NCBI GenBank assembly: GCA_002841885.1
Contig: PHBE01000006.1
Span: forward strand, 1-64,000
Source: Deltaproteobacteria bacterium HGW-Deltaproteobacteria-18
Lineage (GTDB): Bacteria; Desulfobacterota; Desulfovibrionia; Desulfovibrionales; Desulfomicrobiaceae
DNA: 64,000 nucleotides
Direction of reading: 5' to 3'
Below, piece after piece: positions 34,362 to 42,734 of this stretch. How positions within the stretch are numbered: the stretch's first letter is position 1; every line of letters starts with the position of its first letter. Below the pieces are notes generated by a model. That model made no database searches. It saw only the letters and a list, made by a program, of their open reading frames with translations, and was not told the DNA's origin. The position numbers were made by a program, and so were the translations under genes.

Positions 34362-34775
34362 ATGAAAGAACTATTGGGCAAAGACATGCGACTGACCAAT
34401 CAACGCAGGATCATCCTGGAAGAGCTCAAATCAGTGACCACCCACCCCACTGCCGACGAGATCTACGGAATGGTGCGACAGAAGATGCCCCGCATCAGCC
34501 TTGGCACCGTGTACCGCAATCTGGAGGTGCTCAGTTCGCTCGGCCTGGTTCGCAAACTCGAAAATGCGGCCGGCCAGAAGCGTTTTGACGGCGACGTGTC
34601 CCCCCATCATCATATCCGCTGCGAAGCATGCGGAAAGGTGGGAGACATCTTCGACGCTCCGGACATCTCGGGCATTGAGCAGGGGCTTGACACGGACTTC
34701 CTGATCACCGGCGTAAGCCTTGAATTCTCGGGGCTCTGCCCCCAGTGTCAGGCTGGAAAAAAGTTGACGCAGTAG
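34362..34775 (+). CDS. perR: Fur-family regulator, PerR-like
   Basis: 137-residue metal-dependent repressor: winged helix (about 1-80) with recognition region ISLGTVYRNLEVL, then a dimerisation domain with structural zinc site CEACG and CPQC. The metal-site acid in KRFDGD is Asp, as in PerR, where Fur usually has Glu, and the context (superoxide reductase, rubredoxin, oxygen reductase) also points to peroxide sensing. Peroxide would oxidise a metal-bound His and release the DNA. Followed by dfx after 103 bases. Confidence 0.85.
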   Translation: MKELLGKDMRLTNQRRIILEELKSVTTHPTADEIYGMVRQKMPRISLGTVYRNLEVLSSLGLVRKLENAAGQKRFDGDVSPHHHIRCEACGKVGDIFDAPDISGIEQGLDTDFLITGVSLEFSGLCPQCQAGKKLTQ

Positions 34776-34878: not shown

Positions 34879-35259
34879 ATGGCTCAAAGACTCGAAGTGT
34901 ACAAATGCGAACTATGTGGAAATATCGTTGAAGTGATGCATGGCGGCGCCGGAGCTCTGGTCTGTTGTGGTGAGGACATGAAGCTTCAGGTTGAAGGGAC
35001 AGTGGACGCGGCCCGGGAAAAACATGTCCCCGTCATCCACAAGACCGCCAATGGCTACAAGGTCGTGGTCGGCGAAGTCGCCCATCCCATGCTCGACGCC
35101 CATTATGTTGAATGGATCGAGCTTGTGGCTGACGGCAAGGTCTATCGCCAGTATCTCAACCCCGGCCAGGCCCCTGAAGCCGAATTCTGTATCACTGCGG
35201 AAAAAGTCACGGCCCGCGAATACTGCAACCTGCACGGACACTGGAAAATCGAAAACTAA
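34879..35259 (+). CDS. dfx: Desulfoferrodoxin (superoxide reductase)
   Basis: Reduces superoxide to peroxide without making O2. 126 residues, two-domain 2Fe type: desulforedoxin-like centre I ligands Cys10, Cys13, Cys29 and Cys30, and the catalytic Fe(His)4Cys centre II ligands His49, His69, His75, Cys116 and His119, with Lys48 next to the site; all are visible. GGAGGAATAA precedes the ATG. Rubredoxin, its usual electron donor, is encoded 15 bases later. Confidence 0.97.
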
Positions 35260-35274
35260 AAGGAGTTACTCAGC

Positions 35275-35436
35275 ATGGATAAATACGTTTGCACCCTCTG
35301 CGGCTATGTTTACGACCCGGCCGTCGGCGACCCGGACAGCGGCGTCGCTCCCGGAACCAAGTTCGAGGACATTCCCGACGACTGGACCTGTCCCGTCTGC
35401 GGAGCCGGCAAGGAAGATTTCGCCAAGGAAAATTGA
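35275..35436 (+). CDS. rub: Rubredoxin
   Basis: 53-residue electron carrier with one Fe bound by four cysteines in CTLCG (6-10) and CPVCG (39-43), flanked by the usual aromatic residues (YVYDP, DDWTCP). Electrons from NAD(P)H:rubredoxin oxidoreductase pass through it to desulfoferrodoxin and to ROO. AAGGAG lies about nine bases upstream. A strong terminator follows the stop. Confidence 0.97.
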
Positions 35437-35442
35437 TCGACC

Positions 35443-35481
35443 AAGGCCAGCCCGCACGATCCGGGCTGGCCTTGTTTTTTT
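35443..35481 (+). terminator. Terminator after rubredoxin
   Basis: Perfect 12-bp stem AAGGCCAGCCCG (35443-35454) / CGGGCTGGCCTT (35462-35473), loop of seven, then a T-run at 35475-35481. It would end the dfx-rub message and make roo expression partly or fully independent. Confidence 0.85.
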
Positions 35482-35536: not shown

Positions 35537-36745
35537 ATGCCTGTTACCGAAATCAAGAAAGACATCTACTGGGTCGGCGTCGTGGACTGGAACATCCACG
35601 ATTTCCACGGATACTCCAAATCTCCCCAGGGAACGACATATAACGCGTATCTGGTCATCGACGACAAGATCACCCTTTTCGACTCCGTTCCGGCCAAATT
35701 TCAGATGGACCTGTATCACCAGATCAGATCCATCATTCCGCTGGAAAAGATCGACTACATCGTCTGCAACCACATTGAACCCGACCACTCCGGGGCCATG
35801 CCCTTCCTGATGGAAAAGATTCAGCCCGAAAAGGTTTTCTGCTCCAAGATAGGGCATCGCATGCTTCTCGACCATTACCACCAGCCCGACTGGCCCTACC
35901 ATCCGGTGCAGACCGGCGACTCCATCAGCCTCGGCAAACGCACGGTGCAGTTCATCGAGACACGCATGCTGCACTGGCCTGACTCCATGTTCTCCTTCAT
36001 TCCCGAAGACAAGCTGCTCATCTCCAATGACGCTTTCGGGCAGAATATAGCCTCCAGCGAACGCTTCGACGACGAAATAGATCTGGCCATGCTCATGGCG
36101 GAGGCCTCCCACTACTATTTCAACATCGTCCTGCCTTTTTCCCCCCGGGTCATTGCGGTGCTCGACGATGTAGGCAAGCTGGGTCTTGACATCGACATGA
36201 TCGCACCGGACCACGGCATCATCTGGCGCTCCAATGTGCCGCTGATCCTTCAGGCCTACCGCGACTACGCCGAGCAGAAGCCAAACAAGAAGGCCCTCAT
36301 TGTCTATGACACCATGTGGCATTCCACGGAAAAGATGGCCAAGGCCATTGCCGAGGGACTCATGGAAGAAGGGGTCGCGGCCAGAATCATGCACCTCAAG
36401 CAGTACCACCATTCCGACGTCATGGGCGCACTGGCCGACGCCACCGGAATCATCTGCGGCTCCCCGACCCACAACAACGGCATCATGCCGCTGATGGCGG
36501 ACTTTCTGACCTACATGAAGGGCCTCAAGCCCCAGGGACGCGTCGGCGCAGCCTTCGCATCCTTTGGCTGGAGCGGCGAATCCCTGGGCGTCCTGACCGA
36601 GTGGCTCAAGTCGGCCAAGGTCGAGGTCGTCGAACCCGGAGTGAAGTGCAAGAACGTGCCGGACCACGCCAAGCTGGCCGAGTGCAAGGAACTGGGTCGT
36701 CAGGTTGGCAAGGCCATCGTCGCCAAAGTGGAAGCCGAGGCTTAA
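35537..36745 (+). CDS. roo: Rubredoxin:oxygen oxidoreductase (flavodiiron protein)
   Basis: Soluble terminal enzyme reducing O2 to water (and often NO to N2O) with electrons from rubredoxin. 402 residues: metallo-beta-lactamase-like di-iron domain with the ligand motif HIEPDH (about 79-84), further ligands in MLHWPDS, SNDAFGQ and APDHGI, then a flavodoxin domain (from about residue 253, ALIVYDTMWHSTEKMAKAI) binding FMN. Because of the terminator in front, its own promoter should lie in 35482-35536, where an 8-bp CCCCGCCC repeat also sits. Confidence 0.96.
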   Translation: MPVTEIKKDIYWVGVVDWNIHDFHGYSKSPQGTTYNAYLVIDDKITLFDSVPAKFQMDLYHQIRSIIPLEKIDYIVCNHIEPDHSGAMPFLMEKIQPEKVFCSKIGHRMLLDHYHQPDWPYHPVQTGDSISLGKRTVQFIETRMLHWPDSMFSFIPEDKLLISNDAFGQNIASSERFDDEIDLAMLMAEASHYYFNIVLPFSPRVIAVLDDVGKLGLDIDMIAPDHGIIWRSNVPLILQAYRDYAEQKPNKKALIVYDTMWHSTEKMAKAIAEGLMEEGVAARIMHLKQYHHSDVMGALADATGIICGSPTHNNGIMPLMADFLTYMKGLKPQGRVGAAFASFGWSGESLGVLTEWLKSAKVEVVEPGVKCKNVPDHAKLAECKELGRQVGKAIVAKVEAEA

Positions 36746-36755
36746 GATACGCACC

Positions 36756-37463
36756 ATGGCGCGCAGCAGGGAAATAAAACGTCAAGTCCTGGACCTCCTG
36801 GCCAGTGATGGCTGGGAGGCCGGACTTGGCAACCTCGCGGAGCTCGGGCAGCAGGCCGTGGCTCCGCTCTTCTCGGCGCTGTGCAACCCGGTGCCGCTGG
36901 TCCGCTGGCGTGCCGTCACGGCGTTTGGGATCGTCGTCGCGGCCCTGGCCGAAAAGTCTCCGGAAAAGGCGCGCGTGGTCATGCGTCGCTTCATCTGGAG
37001 TCTCAACGACGAATCCGGAGGCATCGGCTGGGGCGCACCGGAAGCCATGGCCGAGATCATGGCCGCAAGCCCCCTTGTCGCCGCCGAATACCACAACCAC
37101 CTCCTGGCCTACATCCATGAGGACCATTGCCGTCCGGACTGCTATCTGGAGCACGCGCCCCTGCGCCGTGGGGCCGTATGGGGCGTGGGCCGACTGGCGC
37201 AGGTCCGGCCCGAGCTCGCGGCAAAGGCCGAAGCCGATCTGCTCTGCGCCCTTGAAGACTGCGACACGGTCATCCGGGGTCTGACGGCATGGGCCTGCGG
37301 CCTGCTGGGCCTGACTTCGGCGCTGCCGAAACTTGAAGCCATGAGCCTGGACCAATCTGTCCTGGAACTTTACCGCGACCGTGAACTTCAGGAAGTGACC
37401 CTGGCCATCCTGGCCGCGGAGGCCGTCTGCCGGATCACGGGCCACGCACCCGCACAAAACTAA
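36756..37463 (+). CDS. HEAT-repeat protein of unknown function
   Basis: 235 residues, soluble, no signal peptide. Repeated helical pairs of about 30 residues fit PBS-lyase-type HEAT repeats: LVRWRAVTAFGIVVAAL, PLRRGAVWGVGRLAQVRP and DTVIRGLTAWACGLLGL. Such proteins are scaffolds and rarely enzymes. The DVN-type HEAT proteins near respiratory genes have no settled role. It lies 10 bases after roo and 12 before cydA, so it is cotranscribed with both oxygen reductases; assembly or partner binding is a guess. The ATG at 36756 has only a weak ribosome-binding site. Confidence 0.8.
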   Translation: MARSREIKRQVLDLLASDGWEAGLGNLAELGQQAVAPLFSALCNPVPLVRWRAVTAFGIVVAALAEKSPEKARVVMRRFIWSLNDESGGIGWGAPEAMAEIMAASPLVAAEYHNHLLAYIHEDHCRPDCYLEHAPLRRGAVWGVGRLAQVRPELAAKAEADLLCALEDCDTVIRGLTAWACGLLGLTSALPKLEAMSLDQSVLELYRDRELQEVTLAILAAEAVCRITGHAPAQN

Positions 37464-37475
37464 AGGAGACTCACT

Positions 37476-38780
37476 ATGGATGTGCTCATGTTATCCAGGC
37501 TTCAATTCGCCATGGCTACCATGTTTCATTTCATCTTCGTCCCGCTGACCCTCGGCTTGTCCATTCTGGTGGCCATCATGGAAACCAAATACGTACGTAC
37601 CGGCGACGAGACGTACAAACGGATGACCAAATTCTGGGGAAAGCTCTTTGTCATCAATTTCGTGCTCGGCGTGGTCACGGGAATCACGCTTGAATTTCAG
37701 TTCGGCACCAACTGGTCCCGCTATTCCGAATACGTCGGAGACATCTTCGGGTCTCTTTTGGCCATCGAGGCCACCACATCCTTTTTCCTGGAATCAACCT
37801 TTCTCGGCGCCTGGATCTTTGGCTGGAACATCCTGTCCCCCAAGATGCACGCGGCCTGTATCTGGCTGGTGGCCATCGCCTCCAACCTCTCGGCGGCATG
37901 GATTCTCCTGGCCAACGCCTTCATGCAGAACCCGGTGGGCTATGTGCTCAGAAACGGCCGCGCAGAACTGGACAACTTCTTCCACGTGCTCCTGAACCCC
38001 TTTGGCTGGCAGCAGTACGTCCACACTCTGAGCGGCGCCTTCACCCTGGCCGGTTTTTTCATCATGGGCGTCTCCGCCTACCATCTGCTCAAGAAGCAGA
38101 ACATCGACTTCTTTACCCGTTCCTTCAAGATGGGCATGGTCTTCGCCCTTGTCTTTTCGGTGCTGGTCGCGGTCCAGGGCCATCATCACGCCCAGGAAGT
38201 CGGCAGAATACAGCCCGCCAAGCTCGCGGCCATGGAATCCCTGTGGGAAACCCAGGAGAGCGCGCCCATGTATCTGCTGGTCGTGCCGGATGAGAAAAAC
38301 GAGAAAAACGCCGTTGAACTCTTCGGCATCCCCGGCGCCCTGTCCTTCCTGGCCCACGGTTCCTTCAACACTCCTGTCCAGGGTCTGAAGGACTGGCCGA
38401 AAGACGAGCGACCGCCCGTCATGCTGACCTTTCTCTCCTTCAGGGCCATGGTCGGAATCGGCACGCTCCTGCCCATCCTGTGCATCTGGGCGTTCCTGCG
38501 CCGCAACAGGCTGACCGAAACGCCGCGCCTGCTCAAAGCCATGCTCTTCGCCATCCCGCTCCCCTACCTCGCCATCGAGGCCGGCTGGGTCGTGGCCGAG
38601 GTGGGACGTCAACCCTGGATCGTCTATGGGCTCATGAAAACCGCCGACGCGGTCTCGCCTATCGTGACGTCCCAGGTGGCCTTCTCCCTGGTGGCGCTGA
38701 CCCTGCTGTACGCACTGCTGGGCGCAGTTGACATCTACCTGCTCTTCAAGTTCGCCAAGAAAGGCCCTGCCGAGGCGTAA
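37476..38780 (+). CDS. cydA: Cytochrome bd ubiquinol oxidase subunit I
   Basis: Membrane quinol:O2 oxidoreductase subunit carrying haems b558, b595 and d. 434 residues, the short form without the long Q-loop insertion of E. coli CydA. The N-terminus RLQFAMATMFHFIF contains the haem-ligand His, and GRQPW in EVGRQPWIVYG (about 370) is diagnostic. AAGGAGACTCACT precedes the ATG. Confidence 0.96.
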   Translation: MDVLMLSRLQFAMATMFHFIFVPLTLGLSILVAIMETKYVRTGDETYKRMTKFWGKLFVINFVLGVVTGITLEFQFGTNWSRYSEYVGDIFGSLLAIEATTSFFLESTFLGAWIFGWNILSPKMHAACIWLVAIASNLSAAWILLANAFMQNPVGYVLRNGRAELDNFFHVLLNPFGWQQYVHTLSGAFTLAGFFIMGVSAYHLLKKQNIDFFTRSFKMGMVFALVFSVLVAVQGHHHAQEVGRIQPAKLAAMESLWETQESAPMYLLVVPDEKNEKNAVELFGIPGALSFLAHGSFNTPVQGLKDWPKDERPPVMLTFLSFRAMVGIGTLLPILCIWAFLRRNRLTETPRLLKAMLFAIPLPYLAIEAGWVVAEVGRQPWIVYGLMKTADAVSPIVTSQVAFSLVALTLLYALLGAVDIYLLFKFAKKGPAEA

Positions 38781-38809: not shown

Positions 38810-39835
38810 ATGCTTGAAACCATATGGTTCCTACTCTGGGGTGTGCTCTGGGCCGTTTATTTCGTGCTGGACGGATACGATCTGGGCATCGGGACGCTCA
38901 TCCCGTTCCTGGGCAAGTCCGACACGGACCGCAGGGTCATGCTCAACGCCATGGGTCCCTTCTGGGACGGCAACGAAGTCTGGCTGATCACCGCCGGCGG
39001 CGTGACTTTCGCCGCGTTTCCCAAGGCTTACGCGGTCATGTTCAGCGGCCTCTACACGCCGCTCATGCTGCTGCTCTTCGCGTTGATCGTCCGCGGCGTC
39101 TCCCTGGAGTTCCGTCACCAGGTCGACAGCCCGGCCTGGCGCAGGGTCTGGGACTGGGGCGCCACCATCGGCAGCTTTGTGCCCGCGCTGCTTCTGGGCG
39201 TGGCTTTCGCCAACATCTTCATGGGTCTGCCCCTGGATGAAAACGGTGTCTTCCAGGGCAACCTGCTGACTCTCCTGAATCCCTACGGCCTGGCCGGAGG
39301 AGTGCTCTTCGTGCTGCTCTTCGTCATGCACGGAGCCCTGTGGTTGACGGTCAAAAGCGACGGGGACCTGCAACAGCGCGCAGCCAATCTGACCCGCAAG
39401 CTCTGGCCCGTGCTGGTGGCGCTCATCGGTGCCTTCGTGGTCCTGACCGCCATTTACACCAACCTTCTGGCCAACTACCTGACCAACCCGCTGATGCTCG
39501 TCCTGCTGGTGATTCCGGTTCTGGCCCTCGTTCTGCTGCGCCAGCAGATCGGCAAGGAGCAGTGGTGGTTCGCATGGGGGCTGTCCGCCGCCATAATCGC
39601 CGGGCTGACGCTCTTCGGCGTGGTCGGATTGTACCCGGCACTGCTGCCCTCGAGCATCTCTCCGGACTATTCCATCACCATCTCCAACGCGGCTTCCAGC
39701 ACCCTGACCCTGTCCATCATGCTGGGCGTGACACTGGTCTTCATCCCCATCGTGGCGGCCTACCAGTTCTGGCTCTACCGGACCTTCGCCCACAAGGTCA
39801 CTGAAAAGGAACTGGCCCAGGACGGAGCGTACTAG
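38810..39835 (+). CDS. cydB: Cytochrome bd ubiquinol oxidase subunit II
   Basis: 341 residues with eight membrane helices. The N-terminal pattern YFVLDGYDLGIG (about 17-28) and GPFWDGNEVWLITAGG (about 47-62) are typical. AAGGAGG lies in front of the ATG. In anaerobes the bd oxidase protects oxygen-sensitive enzymes. Ends at a strong terminator. Confidence 0.96.
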   Translation: MLETIWFLLWGVLWAVYFVLDGYDLGIGTLIPFLGKSDTDRRVMLNAMGPFWDGNEVWLITAGGVTFAAFPKAYAVMFSGLYTPLMLLLFALIVRGVSLEFRHQVDSPAWRRVWDWGATIGSFVPALLLGVAFANIFMGLPLDENGVFQGNLLTLLNPYGLAGGVLFVLLFVMHGALWLTVKSDGDLQQRAANLTRKLWPVLVALIGAFVVLTAIYTNLLANYLTNPLMLVLLVIPVLALVLLRQQIGKEQWWFAWGLSAAIIAGLTLFGVVGLYPALLPSSISPDYSITISNAASSTLTLSIMLGVTLVFIPIVAAYQFWLYRTFAHKVTEKELAQDGAY

Positions 39836-39861: not shown

Positions 39862-39893
39862 AAAAAGGGTGGCCGTGATGGCCACCCTTTTTT
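39862..39893 (+). terminator. Terminator after cydB
   Basis: AAAAAGGGTGGCC (39862-39874) pairs with GGCCACCCTTTTT (39880-39892) around GTGAT; the T-run forms the 3' arm. It ends the roo-HEAT-cydAB unit. Confidence 0.85.
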
Positions 39894-40006: not shown

Positions 40007-41191
40007 CTAGAACACCATGCTCGCGATCCAGCTTCCGGAGACGAACACGCCGATGGTCGCACCCAGGTTGGCGAAAATGACCACCAGCAGAATGCGGCTG
40101 ACCGGATTGATCCAGAAGCCCTTTACCGTCATGACGCTCATGGGCAGCTCTTCGAGGTCCGAAACCGTGGGCTTCTTGACCCAGGCCTGGACAAGTCCGG
40201 CCACCCAGCCCGCCGCGATCAACGGATGCAGCGTGGTGATGGGCGCGGCCAGAAAACTCGAAAGCACGGTCAGCGGATGGCCAAAGGCTGCAAGAGAACC
40301 AAGGGCCGCTCCGATGCCGGTCACCAGCACCCAAACCGAGATTGCGTCCATGGAGGCGTCAGCGCCGCCACGGAAAAAACCGATGACCAGCAATGCGACG
40401 AAAAAACCGGGCAACCCCCACTTCCAGAAAACGCCCCATCTGGAGGGGGGAGGGAGCTCTTCAAGCGGAGTCAGATCGATCTCCCGGCCAAAATATTGCT
40501 GCATGCCCGGCACGTGACCTGCTCCGACCACGGCCACGATGTTCGTGCCCGGCGCCTTGCGGATCTTCTGCGCCAGATAGATGTCGCGCTCGTCGATGAG
40601 ACGCTCCTTGATCTGTGGAAAATTTTCCGCAAATGAGCCCATGATGGCGGCCAGCTGGTCCTTTTTCTTCAGGTCCTCGATGAGGGCCTTGTCCACCTCG
40701 TCGTCGACGAAAATGCTGGCCAGAAGCTGGCTCAGGAGCTGAAATTTCTTCCAGAAGCCAAGATAGCCCCAGACGCGCTTCAAGGTGACCTGCACATCGC
40801 GATCGGCCAGGACCAGAGTGGCTCCGGTCTCTTGTGCCAGGCGTACCCCTTCCATCATCTCCGCGCCGGGTTGTACGCCCAGCTTGTCGCCGATCTTGCG
40901 GTAAAAGGCCTGCAGCACGAGCTGCACCATCAAAAAGACGGCCTTGCCCTCCTTGATGACCTTGTAGATGTCCATCCGTTTCCAGTCGTCACGCCGGGTC
41001 ATGGCCTGGTGGCGCGCCGGGCAGAGTTCGACGCAGATGGAATCGGGATTCACGATCTCCACGGTCCGTCGCACATCCTCGACACTTTCCAGGGAAACGT
41101 GAGCGGTGCCGACGAGAAAAAATTTTTTCTCGCCCTCTTCGATCACGGTCACGCTTTCGGGCAAATTTTCAAAATCCACGCTATACCTCAC
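40007..41191 (-). CDS. TraB/PrgY family membrane protein
   Basis: 394 residues. The N-terminal about 240 residues are the TraB/Tiki (erythromycin-esterase-like) domain, with FLVGTAHVSLESVEDV (about 24-39), ICVELCPARHQAM and GAGHVPGMQQYF, whose conserved Glu and His residues bind a metal in related Tiki proteases. The C-terminal about 150 residues hold four or so membrane helices. Enterococcal PrgY/TraB blocks pheromone signalling; most bacterial members have no known substrate. The end at 40007 is 114 bases from the cydB terminator, and it diverges from the MATE gene. Confidence 0.85.
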   Translation of the reverse strand: MRYSVDFENLPESVTVIEEGEKKFFLVGTAHVSLESVEDVRRTVEIVNPDSICVELCPARHQAMTRRDDWKRMDIYKVIKEGKAVFLMVQLVLQAFYRKIGDKLGVQPGAEMMEGVRLAQETGATLVLADRDVQVTLKRVWGYLGFWKKFQLLSQLLASIFVDDEVDKALIEDLKKKDQLAAIMGSFAENFPQIKERLIDERDIYLAQKIRKAPGTNIVAVVGAGHVPGMQQYFGREIDLTPLEELPPPSRWGVFWKWGLPGFFVALLVIGFFRGGADASMDAISVWVLVTGIGAALGSLAAFGHPLTVLSSFLAAPITTLHPLIAAGWVAGLVQAWVKKPTVSDLEELPMSVMTVKGFWINPVSRILLVVIFANLGATIGVFVSGSWIASMVF

Positions 41192-41348: not shown

Positions 41349-42734
41349 ATGTCTCAAAGCGATTTCAACCAGCAACTGCAACGCGCCCCTTACGCGACCA
41401 TCTGGAACCTGGCCTGGCCTCAGGTGGTGATGATGTTCTTCCACTTCCTGATCGGCTTTGTCGACGTCTGGGTGGCCGGGCGGATCGGGCGAGAGACCCA
41501 GGCCTGCGTGGGCGTCATGAGCCAGGCCATGTTCTTTTTCATGGTCGTGGCCATTGCGCTGGCCAACGGCGGCGTGGCGGCCATAAGCCAGAGCTCTGGA
41601 GCGGGGCTTCCGCGCCGCGTCAAACGTTTTGTGGGGCTGGGAGTGGGGCTGGGGCTTGTCACAGGACTGATCATCCTGGCCTTCGGGCTGTGGTTCGACG
41701 AGCGCTTCCTGCTCCTTCTGCAGATCCCGGCCGAGGTCATGCCCATCGCCGAGTATCTGCTGCAGGTCAGCCTCTACATTCTGCCGGCCTACTACCTGTT
41801 CACCATCAGCAACGCCTTTTTCCGGGCCCAGAAAATCGTGACCCTGCCCCTTTATTCCATGATCCTGGTCACGGGAGTAAACACGCTGCTTGACCTGGGC
41901 CTTGGGCTCGGCATGTGGGGGCTGCCCGACCTCGGATACAAGGGCATCGCCTGGGCGACATTCGCCTCCATCCTCTGCGGGACCATCTACAACTTCGTCA
42001 TGATGTTCCGCTGCGGGCTACTTTCCCGGCAAAGCCTGGCCCCGTGGTGCTGGGTCCGGTTGGCCCTGCCCTATCTGGTCAAGGTGGCCTGGCCGGCCGG
42101 GCTCATGCAACTGGTCTGGCACTCGGCCTACATGGTGCTCTATGCCATCACGGCCAGTCTCCCCTTTGACAACGTCATCGCCATGGCGGGGATGAGCGCC
42201 GGCATCCGCATCGAGGCCCTGCTCTTTCTGCCTGGCATTGCCTTCAATTTCACCGCCTCCATTCTGGTCGGCCACTACCTTGGCCAGGGTCAAAAAGAGG
42301 AAGCCAAACGCATCGGCTACAAGATCATGCTCGTGGGCGTGATCGCCATGAGCTTCATCACCGGCCTTCTGTGGCTGGTCATCGAACCGGTCATCGCCTT
42401 TGTCGCCCCGGACCTGCAAGTGCAGGAAGAAGCCATACGCTACCTGGCCTGGAACATGGCCGCCACGCCGCCACTGCTGGCCGCCATGATCCTTGGCGGA
42501 GCCTTCACCGGAGCAGGGGCGACCATATACCAGGCCATCATATTCGGCACTGCGGCGTGGCTGGTACGCCTGCCCCTGGCCTACCTGCTGGGACATGTGG
42601 TGTTTCAGTCCGCCAACGGCGTATGGATGGCCATGTTCGCATCCGTCCTGGTCCAGTGCTCCACCGCCCTTTATTTCTATCAGTACAAGGATTGGTACAA
42701 ATTCACTCTGCGTAAAGACAGGAGAACCGCTTGA
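41349..42734 (+). CDS. MATE-family efflux protein
   Basis: 461 residues, twelve membrane helices, two repeated six-helix halves of the multidrug and toxic-compound extrusion family (NorM/DinF type), exporting cationic compounds against Na+ or H+. Typical opening: ATIWNLAWPQVVMMFFHFLIG. The Mrp antiporter in the window could supply the Na+ gradient. GGAG lies six bases before the ATG. Its stop overlaps the next gene's start. Confidence 0.92.
   Translation: MSQSDFNQQLQRAPYATIWNLAWPQVVMMFFHFLIGFVDVWVAGRIGRETQACVGVMSQAMFFFMVVAIALANGGVAAISQSSGAGLPRRVKRFVGLGVGLGLVTGLIILAFGLWFDERFLLLLQIPAEVMPIAEYLLQVSLYILPAYYLFTISNAFFRAQKIVTLPLYSMILVTGVNTLLDLGLGLGMWGLPDLGYKGIAWATFASILCGTIYNFVMMFRCGLLSRQSLAPWCWVRLALPYLVKVAWPAGLMQLVWHSAYMVLYAITASLPFDNVIAMAGMSAGIRIEALLFLPGIAFNFTASILVGHYLGQGQKEEAKRIGYKIMLVGVIAMSFITGLLWLVIEPVIAFVAPDLQVQEEAIRYLAWNMAATPPLLAAMILGGAFTGAGATIYQAIIFGTAAWLVRLPLAYLLGHVVFQSANGVWMAMFASVLVQCSTALYFYQYKDWYKFTLRKDRRTA

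Follow-up and report, generated by a model that had tools for sequence, protein, structure and literature searches.

Between the genes for a soluble and a membrane-bound oxygen reductase, the window (the whole 64,000-nucleotide stretch of DNA analysed here) carries a small HEAT-repeat gene. We have found that its product is a member of the catalogued DVU0298 family, which carries no assigned function, and that the presence of this family follows the dsr system and the CxxCxxCC protein linked to it. Because the neighbourhood of the gene is one of oxygen defence, and its presence pattern is one of sulfite reduction together with the CxxCxxCC and TPR proteins, we infer an adaptor that would serve the sulfate-reduction machinery under oxygen. 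Roughly an even chance is given to this reading, i.e., that the HEAT protein is an adaptor for the sulfite-reduction machinery and is deployed together with oxygen defence.

The protein would then be a small adaptor with a HEAT solenoid, restricted for the most part to Desulfobacterota that carry dsr. Its most likely partners are two dsr-linked proteins, CxxCxxCC (YkgJ-type) and TPR, with which it would act on the enzymes of sulfate reduction. It would be made alongside oxygen-removing enzymes (in the window genome its gene probably shares a transcript with roo and cydAB), would be needed when oxygen threatens the sulfate-reduction machinery, and would protect, repair or position the enzymes. 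This bears on how strict sulfate reducers shield their oxygen-sensitive sulfite-reducing enzymes. In relatives the gene belongs as much with sulfite reduction as with oxygen removal, which hints that sulfate respiration and survival under oxygen are connected. The DVU0298 family, with genes in oxygen-defence operons of some lineages and beside the dsr module of others, is a concrete candidate for this connection.

The HEAT gene, its protein and the roo-cydAB locus

The short-type HEAT gene lies at 36756..37463 on the plus strand and encodes 235 aa, with its ATG at 36756 and a TAA ending at 37463. In Pfam the protein matches HEAT_EZ with 49 bits (cut-off 27) and HEAT_2 with 33.4 bits (cut-off 27.7). 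NCBIfam assigns it to the DVU0298 family (NF045662) with 243.9 bits against a curated cut-off of 75, and residues 10-224 align with positions 1-212 of the 213 in the model, i.e., a full-length match in which the model covers nearly the whole window protein. By its name, the family is called after DVU0298 of D. vulgaris Hildenborough. An AlphaFold2 model, made from an alignment with 76 of 80 prepared reference sequences, shows a solenoid built of helices throughout, with a single hairpin at the C terminus (mean pLDDT 96.5). The Pfam matches over cut-off, this model and the structural matches all show the tandem antiparallel helix pairs of a HEAT/ARM solenoid. The most conserved stretch is R77-x3-W81-x2-N84-x-E86-S87-G88-x3-W92-G93, of which all the named residues are present in the window protein and in at least 90% of the 76 aligned short-type members; it maps at and just ahead of a loop joining two helices of the model.

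The likeness to known proteins concerns the fold. Foldseek and VIA structure searches returned alphaReps and ARM/HEAT proteins, generic solenoids only, while a sequence search of solved structures returned alphaRep designs, with the mTOR-complex protein Raptor appearing only at E about 0.15 or more. That is, the HEAT_EZ/HEAT_2 proteins of Pfam and the alphaRep designs share the repeat signature and the solenoid fold with the window protein, but as a generic fold match only, and the listed solved structures include no functional relative. Diiron HEAT enzymes such as deoxyhypusine hydroxylase (DOHH) are defined by conserved His-Glu metal-binding motifs; no histidine is found among the conserved positions of the HEAT family. 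HEAT proteins of the phycobilisome lyase/NblB type carry the HEAT_PBS signature and have bilin proteins nearby; in Pfam, HEAT_PBS is not listed for the window protein and is above cut-off in two longer family members, L237 and L252. Neither phycobilin-lyase nor DOHH entries are among the structural matches listed, and a plasmid search with the HEAT protein gave no match.

The sequence-only reading had placed the gene between roo and cydA with gaps of 10 and 12 bases, and the ORF coordinates and Pfam bear this out. Upstream is roo (35537..36745, plus strand, 402 aa; Pfam ODP and Flavodoxin_1), named as a flavodiiron rubredoxin:oxygen oxidoreductase by family and context. Downstream on the same strand are cydA (37476..38780, 434 aa), for cytochrome bd subunit I (PF01654, Cyt_bd_oxida_I, 597.9 bits), and cydB (38810..39835, 341 aa), for subunit II (PF02322, Cyt_bd_oxida_II; TIGR00203). 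Further upstream, also on the plus strand, we find a Fur-family regulator (34362..34775; PF01475), which is nearest to PerR models but below their cut-offs (NF047406, 104.1 bits against 200), the desulfoferrodoxin (superoxide reductase) gene dfx (34879..35259, 126 aa; PF06397, PF01880; TIGR00320, 208.5 bits), and the rubredoxin gene rub (35266..35436, 56 aa; PF00301).

Two strong terminator-like hairpins on the plus strand, which are consensus matches only, flank the set: one between rub and roo (35442..35474, 13 pairs followed by a T-run) and one 3' of cydB (39862..39892, 14 pairs with a T-rich tail). The remaining plus-strand matches between them have short stems of 5-7 pairs and lie within genes, so that roo, HEAT, cydA and cydB are probably transcribed as a unit, which fits the cotranscription proposed earlier. 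As read by eye, the cydA ATG is preceded by a ribosome-binding-like AAAGGAG, and no such site is obvious ahead of the HEAT gene; translation of the latter may thus be coupled to roo. Beyond cydB, a TraB/PrgY/gumN-family gene lies on the minus strand (40007-41191) and a MATE transporter gene is next (41349-42734), and both recur in several near relatives.

Gene neighbourhoods in the order and the phylum

A DVU0298-family match was found in 265 of 297 Desulfovibrionales genomes, nearly always in one copy. We have compared 60 loci of this order, chosen by hand to spread over genera (40 from listed places and 20 from further HEAT-bearing genomes); each neighbour is labelled by its best BLAST hit among clusters that had been started from the window and from loci read before, and only representatives were checked in Pfam or NCBIfam. 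Genes of oxygen defence (Roo, CydAB, desulfoferrodoxin or similar) adjoin 19 of the loci, namely all 7 of family f1, 5 of f2, 5 of f3, the only locus of f6 and, within f5, a single genus (g28). Dsr-type neighbours, i.e., the CxxCxxCC, c5 and TPR genes and in some cases dsrABD, occur at 26 loci (three of f4 and 23 of f5), and 15 loci show neither kind. As immediate neighbours, a TPR gene is upstream at 24 loci, Roo upstream at 17 and CydA downstream at 10. In f4 and in most sampled genomes of the Desulfovibrionaceae-like f5, the HEAT gene is distant from any oxidase.

At 24 of the 60 loci the HEAT gene is directly 3' of the TPR gene that ends a ferredoxin-CxxCxxCC-c5-TPR row. In the window genome and the checked f1, f2, f3 and f6 genomes, this row stands immediately 5' of dsrAB and is without HEAT. 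Since the row lacks HEAT where HEAT adjoins roo, the single HEAT gene occupies either the oxidase place or the dsr-linked TPR place. In three f5 genomes (G119, G161, G240) roo and cydA are adjacent, with match ends 84-158 bases apart and no room for a HEAT gene, which lies elsewhere; two others (G090, G102) keep the roo-cydA pair and have no HEAT gene altogether.

On contig 9 of the window's genome (G000), locus L096 (7237-13706) reads ferredoxin, CxxCxxCC, c5, TPR, dsrA, dsrB, dsrD and cobB, and this row occurs in other families too. The dsr-linked CxxCxxCC-TPR pair may be a maturation or modification module of dsr. The c5 gene (about 118-122 aa; 8218-8664 in L096), flanked by the CxxCxxCC and TPR genes ahead of dsrAB, is found again in most Desulfovibrionales loci read, and neither Pfam nor NCBIfam gives a match for its representative from L044.

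Over the phylum, the direct order Roo-HEAT-CydA was found at 22 loci of f1, f2, f5 (g28), f6, f7, f58 and f63, and of contigs labelled Desulfomicrobium, Desulfomonile and others. As it recurs under seven or more family codes of the phylum, far outside the genus, the order is not a local accident. The family itself extends, by record labels, to Desulfobacterales, Desulfobulbales and Desulfomonile. Its short form (about 235 aa) has oxygen-defence neighbours (Roo, desulfoferrodoxin, ferritin, CydAB) in 25 of 40 sampled phylum loci; the others comprise one with both kinds, one with dsr-type neighbours (L229, counted here as short and grouped with the long forms in the tree) and 13 with neither. 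Roo lies within 3 kb in 23 and desulfoferrodoxin in 15 of these 40. In a further set of 78 loci (genome_contigs), which favours sequences that have peptides in common with the window protein, 49 have oxygen-defence neighbours, 29 have neither and none is dsr-type, and ferritin is directly upstream in 19. Among the Desulfobulbales loci, L133 and L164 being two of them, many read ferritin, HEAT and a gene of about 425 aa that looks nitrilase-like by eye, and in others HEAT follows a cyclic-nucleotide-binding DUF4388 protein. One family match (L185) is on a contig labelled Planctomycetota.

There is also a long paralogue (about 360-580 aa; L234-L253), which is extended at its N terminus by a domain with pairs of cysteines, as read by eye. 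A gene of the same TPR family is found within 3 kb at 20 of its 20 loci, the CxxCxxCC gene at 12 and DsrA/B at 11, and in some genomes, as in L237, the paralogue carries a C-terminal fusion of TPR repeats. NCBIfam names both forms NF045662. One family name thus spans two forms with different neighbours, and this functionless model lumps the short form beside oxygen defence with the long form beside dsr.

What the presence of the family follows

In a phylum sample of 247 genomes, the DVU0298 family is above cut-off in 102. It is present in 101 of 123 genomes with dsrA and in 1 of 124 without; read the other way, dsrA is found in 101/102 genomes with HEAT and in 22/145 without. Roo is a poor guide: among 72 genomes with Roo and without dsrA, the only one with HEAT is G348, which is 6% contaminated, and within the dsrA-bearing genomes Roo makes no difference to the short form (87/110 vs 11/13, the long-form set being typed by open-frame length). 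When counted by family, HEAT occurs in 0 of 23 Roo-bearing families without a dsrA-bearing member and in 39 of 45 with such a member. Shared descent explains part of this dsrA association.

For a closer comparison we tabulated 36 genomes of f5, i.e., 22 with HEAT, hand-picked to span genera, and 14 without, which are all the f5 genomes among the 20 listed of the order's 32 HEAT-less genomes; genomes of the same genus are not independent, and three of the 14 are reduced g12 genomes and four are g41. The CxxCxxCC protein is present in 22/22 genomes with HEAT vs 3/14 without (some matches contain in-frame stops inside the matched range). For dsrA the proportions are 21/22 vs 7/14, with G041 scored present though its hit spans two contigs. 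CydA, scored present only on a strong full-length match, is in 22/22 vs 9/14, and G221, with six stops in its match, counts as absent. CxxCxxCC and CydA together are in 22/22 vs 0/14; that is, the conjunction of the dsr-linked protein and cytochrome bd matched the presence of HEAT in all 36 tabulated genomes. Of the 8 tabulated genomes without dsrA, 7 are also without HEAT.

Two reduced genomes, G125 and G158, keep dsrA, CxxCxxCC and TPR and are without Roo, CydA and HEAT; in the third, G221, cydA is degenerate and HEAT is absent. Both CxxCxxCC and HEAT are absent from G090 and three g41 genomes, all of which carry dsrA. G185 has HEAT and CxxCxxCC without dsrA. The conjunction is less strict beyond f5: G002 and G013 (f3) have HEAT without CydA, G023 (85% complete) has HEAT and no CxxCxxCC match, and G066 (82% complete) has CxxCxxCC and CydA without HEAT. 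The fragmented G061, also outside f5, is without HEAT as well. Against the adaptor reading stand G090 and the three g41 genomes, G185, G002, G013, G023 and G066, together with the 22 dsrA-bearing genomes of the phylum sample that are without the family and the 15 Desulfovibrionales loci with neither kind of neighbour. DsrD was considered as a sharper companion than dsrA and is not better, as it is found in several genomes with dsrA and no HEAT (for example G312, G323, G363, G461); f9 and f53, on the other side, have HEAT-bearing genomes for which no DsrD match is listed.

These patterns bear on what else the protein could be. It is unlikely, in our view, that it is a general scaffold of oxidative stress or iron storage, inherited vertically in sulfate reducers and with no specific tie to Dsr. 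Such a scaffold agrees with the ferritin and desulfoferrodoxin genes nearby, and clade inheritance alone could yield much of the dsrA association, but against it stand the loss of HEAT with dsrA within f5, the co-presence of CxxCxxCC there, and the f4/f5 copies placed behind the dsr-linked TPR gene.

The sequence-only reading had proposed an assembly or regulatory factor for one of the two oxidases, Roo or cytochrome bd, which we now consider quite unlikely. The conserved oxidase order, the oxygen-defence neighbours with Roo so often within 3 kb of the short form, the CydA of every HEAT-bearing f5 genome and the joint absence of Roo, CydA and HEAT from G125 and G158 all speak for the idea, which is partly supported. 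On the other hand, dedication to one oxidase is not supported: relatives without oxidase neighbours, which the sequence-only reading had itself named as refuting, do occur, as 41 of the 60 Desulfovibrionales loci have no oxygen-defence gene within 3 kb; G119, G161 and G240 keep roo and cydA together with HEAT elsewhere, nine f5 genomes retain Roo and CydA without HEAT, and HEAT is absent from 71 of the 72 phylum genomes with Roo and without dsrA. An assembly factor would track its oxidase across genomes, and in the f5 and phylum samples the gene does not. A dedicated factor of Roo or CydAB has been set aside as the leading reading, and the data speak more for a gene that ties oxygen defence to the Dsr module.

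Relationships of the copies and a possible mode of action

We have built a quick tree from 101 HEAT domains, in which one starred group unites the long dsr-linked forms with L229. Most Desulfovibrionales copies fall into a second starred group of 34 rows, which divides into roo-linked and f4/f5 copies; L060 (f3) falls outside this main group. The f4/f5 gene and the roo-linked gene could be different paralogues with different jobs, in which case the neighbourhoods would be silent on a shared function. Both copies form separate supported groups in the tree, and a union of f4/f5 with the long dsr-linked forms is not rejected by AU tests (p 0.175 and 0.354; ten rows were dropped in one alignment, and in the other five were dropped and the outside short rows thinned to every second). 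We nevertheless think it rather improbable that the two are different paralogues: the f4/f5 copies are of short type by mean identity (38% to roo-linked copies and 37% to outside short forms, vs 25% to long forms) and by their ESG-x-x-GWG motif, they are without the N-terminal domain of the long form, and nearly all genomes of the order have one family copy.

A more specific mode of action can be conceived. In the available part of a study on D. vulgaris, tagged Roo was recovered along with desulfoviridin, adenylylsulfate reductase, QmoAB and Sor, which counts for the adaptor reading; to be set against this, the no-bait controls likewise had Roo as their top protein. Lysine methylation of ApsA, ApsB and DsrC was reported there too (PMC3125180). 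FliB is a [4Fe-4S] lysine methyltransferase, whose motif CX4CX3CC has been likened to PF03692 in the available part of its report (PMC8598068). By analogy, the HEAT protein might be the oxygen-responsive specificity subunit of a protein-modification system of sulfate respiration, which we regard as a long shot. The dsr-linked CxxCxxCC protein, being FliB-like, would carry an oxygen-sensitive [4Fe-4S] cluster and add methyl groups to lysines of ApsA, ApsB and DsrC; the TPR and HEAT proteins would present the substrates, and the short HEAT protein would dock Roo onto the sulfate-reduction enzymes, where oxygen is removed beside them. The Roo pull-downs, the lysine methylation and FliB make this conceivable. 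The likeness to PF03692 and FliB belongs to the CxxCxxCC domain of the dsr-linked neighbour, not to the HEAT protein; FliB's own motif differs from CxxCxxCC, and the methyltransferase role of the dsr-linked protein is only putative.

Our literature search, which covered main texts and few subscription papers, found no publication on the roo-HEAT-cydA gene order, and no direct interaction, expression or mutant data on the DVU0298 family. It did return a mention of DVU0298 in a CO-dehydrogenase table, where the entry is probably a misprint for another locus.
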